64,000 nucleotides of DNA from positions 33,025,710 through 33,089,709 of the forward strand of contig NC_052350.1 of NCBI RefSeq assembly GCF_009727055.1, in the 5' to 3' direction. Below are positions 11,072 to 64,000 of this stretch, piece by piece. The translations under genes and the position numbers were made by a program. The notes under the pieces are model-generated. The model had not been told where the DNA came from and made no database searches. It saw nothing but the letters and a program-made list of their open reading frames with translations. This DNA comes from Benincasa hispida. Its lineage: Eukaryota; Streptophyta; Magnoliopsida; Cucurbitales; Cucurbitaceae. The stretch's first letter is position 1. Each line of letters starts with the position of its first letter.

Positions 11072-14000
11072 TGTAACATCCCGAATTTCAAGAAAATTTA
11101 AGTTAATTATCTAAAATTATTGAGTTTAAATTTCCCTTTTATTTGGAAAATTGAGGTTAAATTGAAATAATTGAAAAACTTTTATTGGTTAAATTGAATT
11201 TAATTGATTAGATATTCGAACTGATTATCTTGAAAATATTGAATTTTACTTCTTTTTTATTTTGGATTTTAGGGCCAACTTAAAAAAAATTAAAGAGATA
11301 ATTAATTTCATGTAGTTTTGAATTGATTTAAATATTTGGGAAGAATTTAATTTGTATCAAGAATTTGATGGATCTTATGCTTTTAATTTGGTTTTTTGAA
11401 GCCTAAATTAAGATAATTTGAAAAGTTAATTGATTTCTAAATTTAATTAGAATCTTTGGAGATATTGGGTAAAAATATTTTATTTATCTTTTCAAAATTT
11501 GGAAAAAATAAAAGAATTGAGATTTTTTCGAAATTAAAGAAGAGTGACAAGAGGTCAAAAATTGGGGAAGAAAGCAATTCGATTTTTCAGCGACAGCTTC
11601 CACAAATTGTCGATTCCAGATTTTGAACCGTTGGATCGTGCTCAAATTTGGTCAGCCTGTTCGAGACATATAAAGTTTCATTTTGAACGGTTGGATCATT
11701 ATTTGAAGCTCTGGTTTATTCGTAATTGCTGCTGAATAAAATCGGTAAACTAGAAATTCCCTCTTCTCCCACTCTCGCAAACCCTCCTCATGCAAGACCC
11801 TCACTACCAGCTACTAGCCTAAACAATTTATGTCGTCCGACAACAACACATGCTGCCTATCTATGGTAGCCACAAGTCGACGTGCCATCGGCCGCCATTG
11901 CCCCGATCTTTGTCGGAATTTTGAGGAAAACCTTGGTAAGACTTATTTTTCCTTATAATTTGGGAAGGTGAAGTTCACCCCTTTGATTTTATTTTGGGTT
12001 AAATTAGTAACCTCTCTTTGGTTTGAAAACTTAGATTCAAAGTTTGGAAGTTTTGAGGCATTGACCATCAAGTTAGATACCATTTTGTTTTGCAGAAAAC
12101 CAAGCCACAACTTTAGGTTGATTCAAATGTGCTAAAGAAGTTCTAAGGAGATTTTGTTTTGTAGTTTTTTACCAAGTTGATTGAGTAAGTAATCTTACTA
12201 TTGGAACTGCTCTAGTGTCCAACAATGATTATTATGAATTTATTGAGGATTATTAGTTAGCATGATATTTATGTCTGCCTTCATTGACTGAGGTTTGAAA
12301 TGGCTGGAGTCAGGAATTGACAAATATGATTTACTGAGGATATATTGATAGTTTGATGTTTATGTATGCCTTGTTGATATGAGAGTTTAAAAGGCTAGTT
12401 GCACATAGAGATGTTTGAAATACTAGTATGATTTGAGTATATTATTTTTATTGGAGATCCTGCTGAATCAAAGGAGGATGAGATGCATACATATGTTGTA
12501 AAGCTATGATAGAAAATTTTATATGTATATTGTAGAATCATGATGATGAGATGTATATGTATGTTATAAAACCATGTTGAGATTGTGATGTCGAGATTGT
12601 GATAGTGATTTTACTGATTAGTTAGAATGTCCACCAGTTTGTGTTTCCTTCGGGATTCACCAGTTTGTGTTTCCTTCGAGATTCCTCAGATATTGTGTTT
12701 CCTTTAGGATTCACCAGATATTGTGTTTCCTTCGGGATTCACCAGATATTGTGTTTCCTTCGGGATTCAGCAGTTTGTGTTTCCTTCGGGATTAACCAGA
12801 TATTGTGTTTCCTTCGGGATTCACCAGATATTGTGTTTCATTCGGGATTCACCAGTTTGTGTTTCTTTCGGGATTAATCAGATATTGTGTTTCCTTCGAG
12901 ATTAACCAGATATTGTGTTTCCTTCGGGATTCACCAGCTTATGTTTCCTTTAGGATTCACTAATTTATGTTTCCTTTGGGATTCACCAGTTTTTGTTTCC
13001 TTCGGGATTCACCAATTTTTGTTTCCTTCAGGATTCACCAGTTTGTGTTTCCTTTGGGATTAACCAGATATTGTGTTTCCTTCGGGATTCACCAGATATT
13101 GTGTTTTCTTCGAGATTCACCAGTTTGTGTTTCCTTCGCAATTAACCAGATATTGTGTTTCCTTTGGGATTCACCAGTTTTTGTTTCCTTCGGGATTCAC
13201 CAGTTCGTGTTTCCTTCGGGACTCACCAGATATTGTGTTTCATTCGGGATTCACCAATTCGTGTTTCCTTCGGGATTCACCAGATATTGTGTTTCCTTCG
13301 GGATTCACCAGATATTGTGTTTCCTTCGGGATTCACCAGATATTTTGTTTCCTTTGGGATTTACCAGATATTGTGTTTCCTTCGGGATTCACCAGATATT
13401 GTGTTTCCTTCGGGACTCACCAGTTTGTGTTTCCTTCGGGATTCACCAGATATTGTGTTTCCTTCGGGATTCACCAGTTTGTATTTCCTTTAGGATTCAC
13501 CAGTTTGTGTTTCTTTCGGGATTCACCAGAGGTAATGGACATATTTAGCTACAGTAGGATAGAATTCAGTTTTTCATGTATGTATGTGTCCCATGAGGAC
13601 TAGGACCGTTTATATGTTCCACCAGAGGTAGGCATCTAGAGGACATAGATGCATAACCTAACCCCAGAAGTGGGGTTACTTACGGAGTATTTTATACTTA
13701 TTCTTTCTCATGTTATTGTTTCAGGTAAGGGTAGAGATGCACCGGCGATAGACAAGCGAAGTTCGTGATCGAGCCACTAGGACTAGTTTTATGCTTCCAC
13801 TCATGAGATTTAGATTTCTTTTCATGCTTTTCTTAACTTTCAGTTTTGATGTTTGAAACTTACTATTAAGAATCATTTTCAGACTTATTTATTATCATTT
13901 ATGATTTATGGGTACCCTATTATTGTTTTTAATATTTGAATTTAATGAAGGACTTTTGTACTTACCTTATTTATTTAGCATTTATTTCACCATAAAAGAG

Positions 14001-16899: not shown

Positions 16900-17171
16900 T
16901 AAATATTGCTAAAAAAAAAAAAAAATCGAGTATTCAAAGTCAAAGCCAGAAAGTTAACCGTCATCCCAATTTTACTCCGCCATTGAAGTCAAAGGTCAAT
17001 CACTAACAAGCTTTTGCTTCTCACCAATGCCTCCTCAAAACGGGTCCACTCTCTCTTTCTCTTTTCATCTTCCAAATTTTGCTGTTTCCGTTCCTTGGTG
17101 CTTAGATTTTCTCTTTTATCCATTTGGGTCTTTTTCTCTGTGCTTCGGTTCAATTTTCTCGCCGGATCCCG
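16900..17171 (+). promoter_or_regulatory. Proximal promoter / 5' leader of the 5-phosphatase gene
   Basis: The 270 bases before the proposed start are distinctly less AT-rich than the DNA upstream and rich in C/T (for example CTCTCTTTCTCTTTTC at about 17050), as expected for a plant 5' leader. An in-frame ATG at 17124 would add 16 residues with a Cys/Leu/Phe-rich start. Another ATG at 17014 is in a different frame and its frame overlaps the coding region. No clear TATA box can be assigned. Confidence 0.45.
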
Positions 17172-37650
<20,479 letters not shown>

Positions 37651-49353: not shown

Positions 49354-52226
49354 TGTAACGACCCGACCCCCTAGGACTTAAGTTTGGCCGTTACTAAATA
49401 CATGCATGCATGAAACTTAAAACGACACTCTGTTATGGTGAAATAAATGCTAATTAAATAAGGTAAATTCAAAAGACATTCATTAAATTCAAACATTAAA
49501 ACAACAGTAGGGTACCCATAAATCATAAATGATAATAAATAAGTCTGAAACGATTCTAATAGTAAGTTTAAACATCAAAACTGAAAGTTAAGAAAAACAT
49601 GAAAAGAAATCTAAATCTCATGAGCGGAAGCATAAAACTAGTCCCAGTGACTCGATCACGAATAGGTCCGGCTGTTGTGTCGGTGCGGAGGTGGCGATCT
49701 TGTACGCGTTACTTGAAACAACAACATGAGAAAGAATGAGTATAAAATACTTAGTAAGTAACCCCACTACTAGGGTCAGGTTAGGCATCTATGTCCTCTA
49801 GATACCTAACTCTGGTGAAACATATAAACTGTCCTAGTCCTCATGGGACATATACATACATGAAAAATTGATTTCTATCCTACTGTAGTTAACTATACCC
49901 ACTACCTCTGGTGAATCCCGAAGGAAATACAATAACTGGTGAATCCCAAAGGAAACACAAACTGGTGAATCCTGAAGGAGAAACAATAATTGGTGAATCC
50001 CGAAGGAAACATAAACTGGTGAATCCTGAAGGAGACGCAATATCTAGTGAATCCCGAAGGAAATACAATAACTGGTGAATCCCAAAGGAAACACAAACTG
50101 GTGAATCCCGAAGGAGATACAATAACTGGTGAATCCCGAAGGAAACACAAACTGGTGAATCCCGAAGAAGACATAATATCTGGTGAATCCCGAGGGAGAC
50201 ATAATATCTGGTGAATCCTGAAGAAAACACAAATTAGTGAATCCCGAAGAAAACACAAATTGGTGAATCTCGAAAGAAACACAAATTGATGAATCCCGAA
50301 AGAAACATAAACTGGTGAATCCCGAAGGAAACATAATAACTGGTGAATCCCGAAGGAAACACAAACTGGTGAATCCCGAAAGAGACACAATAACTGTTGA
50401 ATCCCAAAGGAAACATAAACCTAGTGGGCATTCTAACTAATCAGTAAAGTCACTATCATAGACTCGACACCATAATTATCACAATATGGTTCTATGACAT
50501 ACATATATGTCTCAACATCATGACTCTACAACATACATACATGCTTCAATATCCACAGACCACATACAACCTCATGAAATCAAATATCATCTCATGCTAG
50601 CATTAAGTATCCATGTGCACAAATACATCTTTCAGATCCTCAAGCAAGAACATACATCAGTTATACTAAAGTATCAGTTCATCATGCTATCATTCTACTA
50701 TAACATTCATCCATCATGCTAGCATACATCCAATGCCTGGCCCGTGGGCAGTTCTAGTAGTAAGATTACTTACCTCGAAGTCAAATTCAAATATTAATCC
50801 AAGCTAATGATCTCCAACCAAATAAGTCCTGAATTGAGTCCCCTAACACAGACATAATACTAAATTTCAGTCTTTGGAACCAAGACCCAAACATATAAAT
50901 TTAATCAAACGGTCACCAAATAACTTACCTAAACGAAACTTGATCAACAGACACTCGCAGGATTTCGACTCCAAAATCTCCTCTTAGCAGATTTTAAAAC
51001 TCAATGGATGACGACTTAGAATCTTCAAAATACTTAAAATTAAACCATTCTTTTAGTCCAATAATCAATAGGTGGCTGACAACCAACAACAATGATCACA
51101 ACGCTTATCAAACTACTTGCCGAACGAACTCGAATCTGTTGGATAGCACGTTGCGCACTCTGAAGTACTCCAATCTTGGATCTAAATTCCAAATATAATC
51201 GGCATCAACCAAAAAGAAAACCAAAATTTAATGGGCAACCGAGAACATTCTAAACTCAACCGCTCTTACCCAGAACTTACCGATCATTACCAATTTTCTG
51301 CAAAACGAAAAATGGTCTCTAGCTTGATGGCCAATGCCTCAAAACTTCCAAATCTTGAATCCAAGGTTTTTCTCAAGATTTCGGCAAAGATTGGGCAGTG
51401 GCAGCTGATGGCGCGTCGGCTCATAGCTACCATAGATAGGCAGTGGGTGTTGCTGTCGATCGGCATAAATTGTTTGGGTTAGCGGCTGGTAATGAGGGTC
51501 TTGCATGAGGAGGGTTTGCGAGAGTGAGAGAGAAAGGAAATGTCTAATTTTACAGATTTTATTTAGCAGCTATTACGAATAAACCAGAGTTTCAAACAAC
51601 GATCCAACCGTTCAAAATGAAATTCTATATGTCTCGAATAGACTGACCAAAGTTGATTACGATCCAACGGTTCAAACTCCGAAAATCGACAATTTTGTGG
51701 ATGCTGTTGCTGAAAAACCAAACTGCTTTCTCCCAATGTTTGGCCTCTTTTCACTCTCATTTAATTTCGAAAAAAATCTCAATTATTTTATTTTATTTTT
51801 TCAAAATTTGAAAAGATAAATAAAATCTTTTATCACTATATCTCCAAAATCTACAAAGATTCTATTAAATTTATAAATCAATTAACATTTCAAATTATCT
51901 TAATTGAGGCTTCAAAAACTAATATCTATCAATTTGATATAAATTAAATCCTTCCAAATATTTAAATCAATTCAAAACTACATGAAATTAATTATCTCTT
52001 TTAATTTTTTTTTTAAATTGGCCATAAAATCCAAAATCAAATGGAAGCAAAATTCAATATTTTTAAGATAATCAGTTAGAATATTTAATCAATTAAATTC
52101 AATTTAACCAATAAAAATTTTCTAATAATTTTAATTTAATCCTAATTTTTCAAATGAATAAGAAATTTAAACTCAATAATTTTAGATAATTAACTTAAAT
52201 TTTCTTGAAATTGAAGATGTTAGACA
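49354..52226 (-). mobile_element. Second copy of the minisatellite-bearing LTR
   Basis: Relative to 11072-14074 this copy is inverted. It starts TGTAACGACCCGACCCCCTAG (the reverse complement of the other copy's end) and ends CTTGAAATTGAAGATGTTAGACA (against TGTAACATCCCGAATTTCAAG). Shared blocks include GAACGGTTGGATC-type motifs at about 51603 and 51663 and the CGACAATTTTGTGGATGC block near 51688. The tandem array is shorter. Flanking 5-mers (GAAAA, GAATC) do not match, so the target duplication has decayed or one end is altered. Confidence 0.8.
49905..50425 (-). repeat. Minisatellite array in the second LTR copy
   Basis: About 19 units of GGTGAATCCCGAAGGAAACA and variants, the reverse complement of the 12630-13535 unit, again in 26- and 28-bp forms. 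The array is about 390 bp shorter than in the first copy, so unit number has changed since the copies separated. The frames at 49834-50431 are repeat artefacts. Confidence 0.9.
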
Positions 52227-58299: not shown

Positions 58300-58500
58300 T
58301 GATGGGGTTGATGCCCTAAACTCTCATAGGGTCCTGTAGTTTGTAAATACCTGTATTGAACAAACTCTTGTGATGTAATAATATGAGATATTTTCTTCAC
58401 TGTTGTCTATGAACATGAGATATTTTATTTGCATTTACCACAAACCAATAAACTAAGATCCCTGGTTTTCGTTGTAACTTAAGCATTTATGTGGAGACAT

Positions 58501-58700
58501 CACTAGAAGAAATTCGGGCTTTAATGTCAGTTTTAAATCGAAATTAAAGGGCTTCAATAACATAGCCTTCAATGTCGGTTGCAATCGATATTAAAGACCT
58601 TTAGTGAAATTTTCAACCGACATTAAAGACCTTTAGTGAAATTTCCATCCGACATTAAAGCCTCTGTTTTTTTTTAAATTATTAACCGACATTGAAGCCC
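58501..58700. repeat. CACTA left subterminal repeats
   Basis: Within 200 bp there are the terminal CTTTAATGTCAGTT, CTTCAATGTCGGTTG (about 58567), CAACCGACATTAAAG (about 58614), ATCCGACATTAAAGCC (about 58646) and AACCGACATTGAAGCCC (about 58683). GACCTTTAGTGAAATTT also occurs twice (about 58595 and 58627). Confidence 0.85.
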
Positions 58701-59417
58701 GAATCTGTCTGTTTTACATTAAATGTAAATATGTAGAAGGGCAGAGGAGATATTTGAAGACATCTCATTTTACTTTACTTTTTTTTTTCTTTATATTAAA
58801 TTCTGCGACTTCCAAGCAATAGACTAAAAAAATCTTACCAATCTTACCCCTCCCTTCTGTTCTCTACAATCTTAGCCTTTTCCACTTTTACAAAAACTAT
58901 TCTTATTGCAAAAATGAGATCCCATTTTCAATCAGTTTCAACTTAGCTCTTCAACTTTGTCTTCTTCAGCAATCTCCCAACTTATTAACAATCTCATAAT
59001 GCCTAAATCAATCTTTGACTACTCTGTTCTAAATCTAAGACAGCCAAGAATAAGGAACCCACCAATATCACATTGACAAAATTTTGAAATGCTACTACTT
59101 ATACAAATATTCTTCAACTTTTAGGAATCGAAAGACGTCTTAATCACAGATTCATACATCATGTCAAGTTCAAGTATAACAAAACTAGGAAAGGAAAATA
59201 TCAGCCAAATTTAACTATACAACTACTCATAAGAGGTTTTGAACATAACTGAGAAGTAAATAACCAAGGAAGCTGTCATCAGCAAACATTCTATTTCTAG
59301 CCCATTCACATCACATGAATAGTGATTATCGTTTCAGCCAGGGGCTAAACATTTTGTCCAAAAGTACAAGCATGCACTTCATACATTAAACAAAAATAAC
59401 ACAGCAAGCAGAGTAGT

Positions 59418-59602
59418 TTAAACTCGAGAATCCCACAAGCACTCCAACTGCACTTTTCCAGCCTTTAAGAGTATCTCAATGTCTTTTGGAGGGTTCAGAC
59501 CAAGATTACAGGCACTCTCCCACCGAGCCATTCTGTTCATTCCAAGGCTAGGTTCATATCGAATTGCCTCAGCATATTCTCAGATGCGCCATAATCATCT
59601 AA
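59418..59602 (-). pseudogene. Captured C-terminal fragment of DNA polymerase delta subunit 4 (POLD4-like)
   Basis: The - strand reads LDDYGASENMLRQFDMN, then after a break of about 11 missing bases GMNRMARWESACNLGLNPPK, then ILLKAGKVQLECLWDSRV and a stop. This is the conserved C-terminal domain of the small POLD4 subunit, which stabilises replicative polymerase delta. The N-terminal PIP-box part is absent. The missing bases put the two halves in different frames, so no intact product is possible. Identification rests on family motifs from memory (LRQFDMN, RMARWERA, LGLNPP, CLWxGRV). Confidence 0.8.
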
Positions 59603-59624
59603 AACAAAATTCAATGTTCAAAAT

Positions 59625-59780
59625 GAAACAAAATGCAGATTATTAAAATAGATATATAGCAAAACGTAGATTCTTTTTTTTTTTCCCTGAAAACTAAAAG
59701 AAAGCTAACATTGGGCAAAGAAGTATTATTAAAATAGATATATAGCAAAACGTAGAACTTAACTGTAACTGGTATCCCCA
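59625..59780. repeat. Short tandem duplication inside the CACTA element
   Basis: AAATAGATATATAGCAAAACG occurs at about 59645 and about 59730, a direct repeat with a period of about 85 bp. It separates the POLD4 and PLS-PPR fragments. Confidence 0.7.
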
Positions 59781-59959
59781 CAACATTCTCACTCCAACAT
59801 GCATAATCCTTCATAAGCTAAGAAGTAGGGATACAAATATGAAACATAGATACAACACAACAACAGTGACACGTCGTCTTCTAAAGATCTAAGACAAATG
59901 CGGAAAAGACACATGCGGAAAAGACACATTTTTAAACATATATATAAGGAAAAAGACTT

Positions 59960-60480
59960 AGAGTAGAAGGCTCTTATTGCAAATTCCAAGCTCCCAGACT
60001 TAGAATAGAAGTTCGGAAGAGAGTTGCCAATACTAGTGTCGAAATCTATATGATATTTGATGATATATGCATGAACCTGCTTCCTAAATTCGATAGATTG
60101 CAAGGAACAACAAGCATTCAACACGATTCCGAGCGTATAGTTTGTAGGATAAGCTTCAGTTTCCAACATTTCTATGAACACTCGGAAAGCAACCAAAGGC
60201 TGTGAATTCTGAACATAACCAGTCACTAGAGTTGTCCATGCAATGGCATTTCTTCTAGGTAAATTATCAAACACTTTGCAAGCAATTTCCATGACTCCAC
60301 ATTTCGCATAAACATTAACAAGAAAAGTCATTACAAATAAGTCTTCATGAGTCCCAGTTTTTATGATATGTCCATGGATAATTTCCGCTTCTGCAGCTAA
60401 ATTCCTATCTATACATTCTTGCAATAGCGGAATATAGTAAGAAGTTTCAATTCTCGTCCATGAGTCATAAACGGGTGTTA
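59960..60480 (-). pseudogene. Captured fragment of a PLS-class pentatricopeptide repeat gene
   Basis: The - strand frame contains YYIPLLQECIDRNLAAEAEI, HGHIIKTGTHEDLFVMTFLV, VYAKCGVMEIACKVFDNLPR, AWTTLVTGYVQNSQP, FIEMLETEAYPTNYTLGIVL, ACCSLQSIEFRKQVHAYIIK and NFYSKSGSLEFAIRAF. These are about four P, L and S repeats of an organelle RNA-editing/processing type PPR protein. The open frame (59789-60424 and slightly upstream) keeps going past the homology into unrelated sequence after AIRAF. The upstream limit lies near a TAG at about 60490. The C-terminal repeats and any E/DYW domain are missing, so it is a fragment. The frame lacks stops over this part, consistent with fairly recent capture. 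Confidence 0.85.
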
Positions 60481-60699
60481 CATTCTAATCCAATATGGTC
60501 CAAAGAGAAATAAACACACTATAACTTCTCAAACATGAATTTTCATATCATTAAAGTCATTTGGAGAAACTTACTAACTGTTCTTAAAACTGCAAGCATT
60601 CAAAAATGCAATTACCAGGAATAATTTTTACGTGAATCCCTTGCTGTTGCAATAAATCCATCTCCTCCCCACCCCTTCCAAACACCTAAAAAATACACA

Positions 60700-60830
60700 A
60701 ACAACATCATTAAAAGTATAGGGTAGAACGAACCTGGCAGCGCGTGTGGCGGAGACATGCGAACGACGACAATGCCTTCCATGTCTCTTCCAAAGGTATC
60801 TTAAATATTGAAGAAGAAACAACAAAAGAT
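60700..60830 (-). other. GC-rich patch resembling the right-end repeat
   Basis: GGCAGCGCGTGTGGCGGAGACA...CGAACGACG at about 60736-60775 resembles GGTGCGCACGGCAGAGACACACGAACGACGG at about 63158-63190 near the right end of the element. This suggests an internal duplication of element sequence. Confidence 0.45.
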
Positions 60831-61831
60831 GACATTATTTTAGTAATCTTTCTTTCTTAGCTCATACACAAGAAGGAAAAAAAATAGGAAATAGCCAATT
60901 TAAACATATTCTTCCAAGAAAAACAGATAGATCTCAAGAGTTGATATCAATAGATGAGAGAATCTTCTTTTTTAAGATCTTGAAGAAGAGAAGCTTGGTT
61001 ACCTAGATATGAGCTACGAAGACGATGGAAAATTTTCGGCAACATAACAATTCTACCACAACAAAAACAAAAATTTACCTTGAACCTGATCAAAGAAACA
61101 CACTCCCAATAATATTCCACAACCACTTGTTCTAAATAAAACTATTAGAATTCCCAAAAAATGAATATTCAAGAACACATACATCAATAAGCAAATTTAT
61201 CTCACAATGTACTTCAAATCTCAAAATTTGTCACAAAAAGTATAACAATGATTTACAAAAACTCTCCTTGTAGGTTTCTTCAGACATTCAAACATAAACA
61301 ACAATGTTTTACAAAAACTCAAATCGACTTACTCACTCACTTCAAATATCCAAAAGTTGTCACATGGGCAATTCGATCTTTTACCTCTAGATTCATGGAC
61401 TCAGTTCCTATCAATGAAAAGAAAGCCAAAAAAACAAAAAACTCAGCAAAGTCTGAATTCCGTCGATCTAAACAAAATATTCAATAAACCACAAATTCTA
61501 TAAGAAATAAGTGATTTCAAACCAAAACAAACACAGTAGTTAGCATAAGAAAGGAGAAACTTCTTCCTTAGAGTTAGACTCTTTCTATAAATACTTGAAG
61601 AAAAGTTAACAATGAAATTTAAAAATACCTAACAAATGAAAACATATCACAAATCCAACATGTAGTTCTATGGAGCAATAACAAAATCTAAACATCCAAC
61701 AATAAATTAGTAGACGAGATCCAACTATTAATTAAAGACTAAATGCCCTAATTAAACTAAATGTCATCTCCACTAGGCACGATAGCGTTTCATATAGTTC
61801 TAAACATTTGCATTATGTTGAAGGATTCTAT

Positions 61832-62122
61832 CTAGACATTTGCATTAAATCTTCCCTCTAGCTCTCTAGCATCATCAATCTTACCTACTTTACACAGTGA
61901 AGACACCATAGTCGTATAGCTAACCACGTCAGGTGGGCAACCTTTACTTGACATTTTGACAAACAGCTTGTGTGCAGCATCAACACGATCATTCTTGCAC
62001 AGCGCCTTCAAAAGTATATTATATGTAAAGACATTAGGAACTAAACCATCTTTCTTCATATTAGTATACAACGGATTAATTATTTGAAACCTGTTTTCAC
62101 TCAGTAATGAATCCAAAAGATC
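61832..62122 (-). pseudogene. Captured fragment of a P-class PPR gene
   Basis: The - strand frame reads LLDSLLSENRFQIINPLYTN, MKKDGLVPNVFTYNILLKAL, CKNDRVDAAHKLFVKMSSKG, CPPDVVSYTTMVSSLCKVGK and IDDAREL. These are three tandem 35-residue P motifs of an organelle RNA-binding PPR protein. The homology ends near ELEGRF, after which the frame stops. At its N-terminal side it is joined directly to an MTP exon at about 62119-62122 (see next entry). A second, shorter copy of the LLDALLSENRF segment occurs at about 62970-63005. Confidence 0.85.
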
Positions 62123-62277
62123 ATTTCTTGAGTTTTTGCAGTATAACCAGAGGGCGAGTTTTACTACTGTGGCAAAGGTCATAATTGCACACAACTAGAT
62201 GAATTGTTCTGACGATAGACTTTCAAATGGTTTATCTTGAATTAGTTGTTCTACTGGTTGAAGCAATACCTGAAAGC
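62119..62277 (-). pseudogene. Captured MTP exon Y, fused to the PPR exon
   Basis: Following an acceptor TTGTTTAG at 62278-62285, the - strand reads in phase with exon X: (G)FQVLLQPVEQLIQDKP, FESLSSEQFI, stop (TAG where Trp is expected), LCAIMTFATVVKLALWLYC, KNSRND. This is the region between transmembrane helices 3 and 4 of plant Mn-type CDF transporters (MTP8-11 group). The frame passes straight into the PPR sequence LLDSLLSENRF. The host gene would continue IVRAYAKDH-like at this point, so the junction is a recombination point. The GAT at the junction could be microhomology. Confidence 0.8.
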
Positions 62278-62663
62278 CTAAACAAGAAATCCAAATGGTT
62301 TAGCTACTCCGCATTGTTAAAGGAACCAAAATCATATATAATCATGCTTTGCTACCAATAAAAGTGATATGAAATTTTGACGTAACCAAGTTGATCCAAT
62401 AATTAAAGATCCTAGAATACAAATATGAATAGAAAATTGCAGACATGGTCTTTGCTAGTTACAAGACATTGATGTAATAACCACCAATAGTGGATGTCAA
62501 TCTTTTCACTTGTTATAATTGAGAAAGGGGCCTTCATTTCTAGCAGGAATATGAGGTAGATAGGCAATAGAATTACTAGAATTTCCTACTCCTCGATCAT
62601 GATTCAAATGACTGAATGAGAAAATCAATGCACTTTCAAACTGGTTTACAAAACAAGAGATAC
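62278..62663 (-). other. Captured MTP intron (GT-AG), 386 bp
   Basis: Donor ACACTAG/GTATCTC at 62663 and acceptor TTGTTTAG/GCTTTC at 62278 on the - strand join exon X (phase 1) and exon Y in the correct frame for the MTP family. Retention of the intron shows the gene was copied from genomic DNA, not from mRNA. Confidence 0.75.
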
Positions 62664-62862
62664 CTAGTGTAGCCATGACAACAGCAAATACAATAATGCC
62701 TACTGGTTGTACCCTCAGCTTTCCAATCGGGTATTTATAAATATTTCCTCGCTTCATATACAAGTGAGTAAACCAAAGTATTCTGCCAGCCATGAGATCA
62801 AGTAAGGAATCCAATGTTGATGCAACAATGGCTATGGATCCACTCCAAATGGTAGCATAAAT
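62664..62862 (-). pseudogene. Captured MTP (Mn-CDF metal tolerance protein) exon X
   Basis: After acceptor GTTTGCAG the 199-bp exon reads IYATIWSGSIAIVASTLDSL, LDLMAGRILWFTHLYMKRGN, IYKYPIGKLRVQPVGIIVFA, VVMATLG. It carries the DSLLD (DxxxD) metal-site motif in helix 2, typical of the Mn-type cation diffusion facilitators MTP8-11, and the YPIGKxRxQP loop. The exon starts in phase 0 and ends in phase 1 like a host exon. It has no stops itself; the defect is in exon Y. The full protein would be around 400 residues, so this is about one quarter of it with exon Y. Confidence 0.88.
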
Positions 62863-62964
62863 CTGCAAACTGTCACTAGAGAGTGAGTTCAAGGTTTGGA
62901 ATAAGGGACCAGAACAGAGCCTTTAATAAACCACGAAACAAACTTGACATTTATCGATTTACTA

Positions 62965-63005
62965 ATCATTCGAAACCTGTTTTCACTCAGCAATGCATCC
63001 AAAAG
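62965..63005 (-). pseudogene. Second short copy of the PPR LLDALLSENRF segment
   Basis: GAAACCTGTTTTCACTCAGC and the following AATGCATCCAAAAGAT at 62976-63011 repeat, with few differences, the segment at 62091-62121 (GAAACCTGTTTTCACTCAGT). The - strand encodes LLDALLSENRFRMI. It lies upstream of the MTP exons, so the MTP piece sits between two copies of the same PPR segment. Confidence 0.75.
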
Positions 63006-63059
63006 ATGAATGTATATCTTCATCGTCGGCTTGCACCCGTTTTTCTTTCTTTTTTTTTT

Positions 63060-63450
63060 TATGCAACAGACGAGATCCACCCATGAATGATGGTAGCATG
63101 ACACGGATGGAGATCCACGACAGACATGGGTTGGTGGTAACTAGCCAAGAACGGACCTGGTGGTGCGCACGGCAGAGACACACGAACGACGGATGAGACG
63201 TGGGTGACTGGGTACGGCGACGCACAGTAAATCCGGGCGATTGATGAGACGCCGAGTAGATGAGATCCATCCACGAACGATGGTAGCATGACACGGATGG
63301 AGATCCACGATAGACATGGGTTGGCGGCAGCTGCCAAGAACGGACCTGGTGGCACGCAGCAGATCTGGGCGATTGATGGGACGTGGGCGACTGGGTGCGG
63401 CGGCGCGGGTTGCACGACGAATAGACCTGCACAGAGGTCAGATCTGCACC
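63060..63450. repeat. GC-rich 190-bp tandem duplication near the CACTA right end
   Basis: TGGTAGCATGACACGGATGG occurs at 63091 and again at 63281. The following GAGATCCACGA(C/T)AGACATGGG and CCAAGAACGGACCTGGTGG also repeat, giving a period of 190 bp. The block is CpG-rich (GCGGCGCGGG at about 63399). The open frames on the - strand at 62983-63556 run through it without recognised motifs. It may be the leader/promoter region of an element transcript running leftward. Confidence 0.7.
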
Positions 63451-63619
63451 ACGATAACCTCTTCACCCACAATCGACGGACGAATGGCAAAGGTTTGTAA
63501 GAGAGAAGTGAGAAAGAAGAGGGTTTGAAAAGGGAAGTGTGAGAATGAGAGGACAAAGAAAATAGGGGGAGAGTGAAGAGGAAAACGAAAAAAATGGGGG
63601 GAAAATAGAGGGTGAGTTA

Positions 63620-63787
63620 AATAAGCGGGTCTTTAATGTCGGTTTAAAACCGAAATTAAAGGTACCCCTACAATGTCGGTTTAAAACCGACATTAAAGAT
63701 CTGCTTTTTTTAAAAAAAACAAAATCGACATTATACATCCGATTTCACTTTTTCCAACCGACATTAAAGTCCAAAATTCTTGTAGTG
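63620..63787. repeat. CACTA right subterminal repeats
   Basis: TTAATGTCGGTTTAAAACCG-type inverted pairs occur at about 63636-63662 and 63671-63698, followed by ATCGACATTATACATCCGAT (about 63722) and AACCGACATTAAAGTCC (about 63758). The terminal TTCTTGTAGTG ends at 63787. Confidence 0.85.
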
Positions 63788-64000
63788 CATACAAATGGAT
63801 CATGCCTTAAATGATAACCAACATGGTCTGTAGTATATGAATATAAGAGGGAAACCTTATCCTGATGACGCTACGGATGCAGTCCGCTTTGTAGATAGTT
63901 ACAAGTGTTGTGACGTACTACAGATGGTCTGATCCTGATCATTCATTCAAGTAAAGGAGAAAATGAATATGGTTTAAATTTGCATATGATGTGATATTAA

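Follow-up and report, generated by a model that had tools for sequence, protein, structure and literature searches.

Host-gene fragments inside CACTA transposons have been described in several plants. The soybean element Tgm-Express1 spans 5,722 bp and contains fragments of five host genes (PMC1947982), Pack-CACTAs of maize often contain several loci (PMC8903248), and CACTA DNA of Chenopodium includes captured gene fragments, among them an AP2 piece of 80 bp (PMC8978399). How DNA transposons take up genes is debated between fusion of neighbours and repair with template switching. Fusion of neighbouring insertions has been proposed for Pack-CACTA and Pack-TYPE elements (PMC8903248, PMC13317346), and gap-filled Pack-TIRs of animals show microhomology at the breakpoints of the filler, the multicopy cases having multiplied via transposition (PMC8277862). 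Here, we analyse a CACTA element at positions 58501-63787 of a 64,000-nt stretch of the Benincasa hispida contig NC_052350.1 (the window), whose minus strand holds pieces of two PPR genes, one of the P type (P-PPR) and one of the DYW-type PLS class (PLS-PPR), together with pieces of POLD4, for subunit 4 of DNA polymerase delta, and of MTP4, for metal tolerance protein 4. It is very probably a non-autonomous Pack-CACTA from a large B. hispida family, with a cargo that was built stepwise. The kind of element is already known, and an initial, sequence-only reading that took four unrelated genes in 5.3 kb to be exceptional does not stand beside the five in 5.7 kb of Tgm-Express1 and the several loci of maize Pack-CACTAs. 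The useful part is that the states before and after a nested capture, of MTP4 within P-PPR, are preserved in one genome.

As described in the sections consulted (PMC1947982), Tgm-Express1 resembles the present element in being a non-autonomous CACTA of near size that contains exonic and intronic stretches from several unrelated genes. It differs in family and host and in lying within the intron of a host gene, from whose promoter its described transcripts start; relatives that record the order of capture exist here, while none are described for Tgm-Express1 in those sections. With the Pack-CACTA and Pack-TYPE elements of Arabidopsis, rice and maize, as partly consulted (PMC8903248, PMC13317346), the element has in common several host loci per copy and relatives of modular make-up.

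The element is 5,287 bp long and has exact ends, CACTAGAAGAAATTCGGGCTTTAATGTC / CACTACAAGAATTTTGGACTTTAATGTC. It starts with CACTA and finishes with TAGTG in inverted repeats, the 5' start reading CACTAGAAGAAATT and the 3' end AATTCTTGTAGTG. The 3-bp target duplication typical of the superfamily is CAT, read from the ends and flanks at 58498..58500 and 63788..63790. Joined by one CAT, the two flanks align without interruption to positions 2641-2993 of the window (plus strand), with 89% identity over 355 columns. Because they align straight through, 2641-2993 is a genuine paralogous empty site, and it holds a single CAT at about 2836-2838. Positions 58501-63787 are thus a non-autonomous CACTA element, precisely inserted with a 3-bp target duplication, and the initial claim that its ends, the duplication and an uninterrupted relative of the target (R3, at about 2840) fix it exactly is upheld. 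The left terminal and subterminal repeats (58501..58715, plus strand) comprise the CACTA end and an array of CTTTAATGTC/GACATTAAAG motifs and are conserved in relatives, and the right block (63335..63787, plus strand), common to several relatives, comprises subterminal repeats and the TAGTG end. As single strands, the two ends form strong foldbacks (left z = -6.8, right z = -7.8). The short subterminal motif ACCGACATTAAAG occurs 13 times in the window when up to two mismatches are allowed, against 1.83 expected window-wide, and 12 of these 13 occurrences lie in the ends of the element.

The most informative feature of the element is the nesting of MTP4 in P-PPR. Pfam matches on the minus strand (DNA_pol_delta_4, 1.5e-9; PPR_2, 2.9e-14 and 4.2e-37; Cation_efflux, 1.1e-11) confirm the earlier proposal that POLD4, PLS-PPR, P-PPR and MTP fragments share one strand. 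The limits of the MTP piece had to be redrawn, as had a layout in which it stood beside P-PPR, which in fact continues on the far side of MTP4 at 62963-63039. MTP4 is an 841-bp genomic insert (62122..62962, minus strand) between two copies of a 45-bp PPR duplication. The upstream part of the P-PPR fragment (piece A, 62963..63039, minus strand) finishes with copy A (62963-63007), and the downstream part (piece B, 61845..62121, minus strand) begins with copy B (62077-62121). Judged by eye, the insert consists of the end of an intron, an exon (62862-62664), an intron (62663-62278) and a further exon (62277-62122). An open reading frame (ORF) at 61832-62194 is consequently a chimaera of MTP4 (residues 1-25) and P-PPR (the remainder). 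The parent of the MTP4 insert is L037 (C2:44914221-44915057, near 44.91 Mb), whose exons are intact; that of the P-PPR piece lies at C12:61965461-61966513, where the query match contains one TAA and the 801 bp fetched are open.

In the B. hispida assembly (912,946,352 bp), scoring of 115 of the 997 candidates located the P-PPR piece in at least eight elements. MTP4, whole or in part, is joined to P-PPR at the identical place in seven of them. The whole insert is present in the window, C12:32.9, C5:18.3 and C9:53.9; it is cut at one shared parent position in C4:30.1 and C5:22.0, and is reduced to 36 bp in C8:41.0. Both 45-bp copies are readable in three of the eight elements (the window, C12:32.9 and C5:18.3), and no PPR sequence was matched on the far side in C9, though MTP4 is present there. 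The eighth element, C1250, contains no MTP4; its PPR piece is uninterrupted and shares its outer limits (parent positions 205 and 513) with the interrupted one. Two sites are diagnostic: the parent and C1250 agree in having AATC and CAGAT, whereas all three A copies read ATTC, and the G of CAGAT has become A in every one of the nine copies adjoining MTP4 that were aligned (three A and six B; C9 not aligned). Since C1250 has an uninterrupted PPR piece with the same outer ends and the parental letters, this comparison of copies shows the P-PPR piece to predate MTP4 in the family, C1250 having diverged before the MTP4 insertion.

The junctions of MTP4 contain microhomologies of 6 bp (TGATTA) and 2 bp (AT) that can be assigned to either partner. 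Among 100,000 random joins, at least 6 bp arose in 0.2% and at least 2 bp in 18%. A filler bounded by microhomology together with one uninterrupted relative is what microhomology-primed gap filling leaves behind, and MTP4 may have been added by such gap filling, or by template switching, while a break within the PPR piece was being repaired. Repair synthesis would have switched at TGATTA from the PPR strand to MTP4, of which about 840 bp were copied, before resuming on the PPR strand at AT, at a point 45 bp upstream; the 45-bp duplication would have been produced in this way. Microhomology bounding a filler inside a DNA transposon recalls the animal Pack-TIRs, as described in the part of that report consulted (PMC8277862); unlike those, the present case is a plant CACTA, with the break within an already captured host gene. 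It also departs from what neighbour fusion predicts in the parts of the Pack-CACTA and Pack-TYPE reports consulted (PMC8903248, PMC13317346), as one cargo gene lies within another, with a 45-bp duplication and microhomology. Rice insertions with tandem duplications were reportedly traced by Vaughn and Bennetzen in 2014 to patch-mediated break repair and, judging from that paper's title, would likewise pair an insert with a duplication.

The remaining cargo lies to the left of these pieces. POLD4 (58720..59947, minus strand) is a capture of about 1.2 kb that includes DNA downstream of the gene, the last exon (59418-59598, limits by eye), which has a frameshift, and an intron. Its parent, L032 (C12:17762722-17763951, near 17.76 Mb), has an intact C-terminal exon and yielded no exact match to the 10-base end motif. 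A filler of 18 bp (59948..59965), by eye present in neither parent at the junction, separates POLD4 from the PLS-PPR fragment (59966..60461, minus strand; about 164 codons). The latter is 95% identical in DNA to its parent L052 (C4:22984218, near 22.98 Mb) and shares 153 of 164 residues (93%) with the B. hispida PPR protein P0001. It overlaps by 4 bp (CCAT, by eye) a family block that we call the body (60458..61242, plus strand), whose left edge is shared by 18 scored places and whose tested ORFs gave no Pfam match. The body follows the left end in four of the five relatives compared (L009, L016, L018 and L053, not L011), and the cargo beyond it differs.

Overall, the cargo pieces are about 94-97% identical to their parents over aligned letters. 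All four parental genes were located elsewhere in the genome, and the fragments show no collinearity with whole genes at this locus; such collinearity, in relatives, is what the sequence-only reading had named as counting against it. Its view that the cargo takes the place of a transposase agrees with the Pfam scan, in which none of the 20 ORFs scanned, from 53 listed, matched a transposase family. The MTP4 and POLD4 pieces keep introns and were therefore captured as genomic DNA, which speaks against capture of processed RNA for these two. A fifth captured gene, considered for the GC-rich region 63068-63480, was rejected: much of this region is the right block of relatives, and its ORFs tested gave no Pfam match above the cut-off.

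Jukes–Cantor distances between the window copies and their parents fall in the order POLD4 (0.060 +/- 0.007), PLS-PPR (0.050 +/- 0.010) and MTP4 (0.034 +/- 0.0065). The relatives hold cargo in modular combinations. Five POLD4 elements (L011, L029, L030, L031 and L034) share at least about 1 kb past the point corresponding to window position 59845 that is absent from the window element, which instead tracks the POLD4 parent for 100 bp further. C12:32.9 consists of the body, P-PPR with MTP4 and the right end, without POLD4 or PLS-PPR. The two parts are combined in the window element, C8, C9, C4 and C5:22.0, with internal losses in all of these except the window element and C8. POLD4-type and body/P-PPR-type elements thus occur separately, which suggests element fusion: an element with the left end and POLD4 would have joined one with the body, P-PPR/MTP4 and the right end, with PLS-PPR between them, in line with the Pack-CACTA model as far as consulted (PMC8903248, PMC13317346). 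The composite may then have spread, its copies decaying as pseudogene mosaics. We tentatively propose that one lineage records two routes of capture, template-switch gap filling, by which MTP4 entered P-PPR, and a fusion that trapped PLS-PPR; the case for both together is close to balanced. The before state (C1250), the after state and both separate types are kept in one genome, so that the sequence of captures and its junctions are legible at single-base resolution. If the two-route reading is true, the cargo of Pack-CACTAs expands through nested repair within elements as well as through trapping between neighbours, and the family could serve as a series of intermediates.

One alternative is that all four fragments were acquired without any fusion and by a single route, in which excision was followed by abortive gap repair with template switching. 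The microhomology at the MTP4 junctions would fit repair synthesis or end joining, as would the 4-bp CCAT overlap between PLS-PPR and the body and the 18-bp filler between POLD4 and PLS-PPR. POLD4-type and body/P-PPR-type elements occur separately, however, and the window element reads as one before the other; we therefore consider a single process possible, although somewhat doubtful.

Several observations weigh against the reading set out above. The uninterrupted PPR piece was seen in one element only, C1250, whose left end was not seen, and the 2-bp microhomology is by itself unremarkable. The errors of the POLD4 and PLS-PPR distances overlap, exon and intron are mixed in these distances, and MTP4 of C5:18.3 stands at a Jukes–Cantor distance of 0.057. 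Because of this overlap and of the C5:18.3 value, the series of distances is support and not proof. Site patterns (11/16/14) do not discriminate between one capture and two as the source of the window's PLS-PPR piece and that of L053; L053 (C5:2517500-2523500) is a relative of 3,955 bp with target site duplication ACG and a longer piece of the same gene (841 bp, 96%). The original pair of neighbouring insertions from which a fusion would have started was not found. In four relatives, L016, L018, C5:22.0 and C9:53.9, both ends are present but the duplication is inexact. Finally, CACTA transposases are abundant in the genome and none of those compared could be tied to these ends, so that no autonomous partner was found.

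The family itself is large. With up to two mismatches, the right-end pattern matched 1,166 times in the genome (594 + 572, the window's own included) and its reversed control 0 times; the left end gave at least 90 matches, from the best 40 of 900 candidates. Sister copies with both termini, which the sequence-only reading had suggested looking for along with the parental genes and whose absence would have counted against it, are thus present, and both ends with an exact 3-bp duplication were read in six relatives (L009, L011, L053, C12:32.9, C4:30.1 and L039). C12:32.9 has the duplication TGT, and its left end reads CAGTA instead of CACTA. L039 was the only one among L039-L050 to pass the test of ends and duplication. 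Both end regions were detected by blastn in L010, L012, L013, L017, L019 and L020, which failed the strict end pattern and whose duplications were not read, and both ends were not seen in C8, C5:18.3 and C1250. The cargo has multiplied with the elements as a unit, P-PPR occurring in at least eight and POLD4 in the 10 elements measured. Pfam detected the POLD4 fragment in L011 (1.1e-10); of 10 ORFs from relatives, six had no match, and the PPR-family matches of the two from L053 fell short of the curated cut-offs. Other cargo was also observed in relatives: a gelsolin-repeat fragment in L016 (6098-6358; Pfam 2.4e-7) and, by eye and without a Pfam match, an importin-like piece in L018 (3156-3341) and an eIF3b-like piece in L009 (5372-5554). 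The right-end pattern had no exact match in viral contigs, and no literature on this CACTA family in Benincasa or Cucumis was among the matches listed.

The element was presumably moved in trans by a transposase of the TNP2 type. PF02992 (Transposase_21) gave 2,020 candidates in the genome, and all of the best 150, which were scored, exceeded the cut-off. A partner with the same subterminal motif, as had been anticipated, was not identified among them. By-eye comparison of these 150 places with 100 of the 1,166 right ends yielded one pair less than 15 kb apart, on C4, in which the transposase is located outside the end. A Transposase_21 match at C4:10586456-10587901 is separated by about 0.8 kb from a right end of this family, on its outer side. 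Two relatives without a right end in the fetched DNA were rejected as autonomous partners: read by eye, the ORFs of L014 resemble a Copia-type polyprotein and those of L015 resemble Harbinger-type pieces, neither being a CACTA transposase.

A text search of the literature with short end sequences retrieved a melon small-RNA paper and a radish CACTA paper and no other that was apparently relevant. Of the 36 'novel miRNAs' of melon fruit in the part of the former consulted (PMC7327070), five match the ends of the element better than any of 200 shuffles each. The same number match with up to five mismatches, whereas 100 pairs of control regions average 0.08, with a maximum of 1. All five are 24 nt long (cme-m1690-3p, m4933-5p, m5360-3p, m5563-5p and m5892-5p; PMC7327070 Table 1), and, judging from this similarity, the best explanation for them is that they are 24-nt RNAs of transposon origin, products of a related melon CACTA family. 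By analogy with melon, the ends in B. hispida probably feed 24-nt siRNA silencing. Six other melon RNAs share the core CGATCG in a AACGATCGTTTAG-like context, seen by eye, and may derive from another repeat family. It is conceivable that the element is a source of small RNAs acting in trans against POLD4, MTP4 and both PPR genes, given that the cargo closely resembles its parents and that related ends match 24-nt RNAs of melon. The melon matches concern the ends, the region compared, and not the cargo, and we regard a role in trans as unlikely.

The order of capture would be lost if C1250 had once contained MTP4 and shed it through recombination between the 45-bp repeats, as such direct-repeat recombination could restore a single copy. 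C1250 nevertheless keeps the parental letters at the two sites that are derived in copies beside MTP4, and MTP4 is the least diverged piece of the window copy, which makes a secondary loss decidedly unlikely and favours the uninterrupted PPR piece of C1250 as the older state.

A functional chimaeric gene on the minus strand, built from captured exons, is very improbable: the four pieces do share one strand, the MTP4/PPR fusion ORF is in frame over 120 aa, the PLS-PPR piece is open, and Tgm-Express1 has documented chimaeric transcripts (PMC1947982, in part), but the second MTP4 exon is broken by a change from W to stop and the POLD4 exon by its frameshift, none of the eight P-PPR matches is free of stops (although those of the window lie in MTP4 and just beyond the PPR piece), and the copies are truncated differently from one another. 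With the captured MTP4 and POLD4 frames broken, the element is a mosaic transposon and not a gene.

Elsewhere in the window, two minisatellites (12632-13530 and 49908-50420), about 36 kb apart and in opposite orientation, are built of a similar unit of 26-28 bp, CACCAGATATTGTGTTTCCTTCGGGATT or its near reverse complement. Pieces of a gene of the inositol-polyphosphate 5-phosphatase type, with beta-propeller and Ig-like domains, occur at 17106-19703 and 36768-37650, about 17 kb apart. An ORF with a reverse-transcriptase zinc-binding domain (34860-35315) lies between them, so that the 5-phosphatase gene may have a large intron into which a LINE-type element has inserted.

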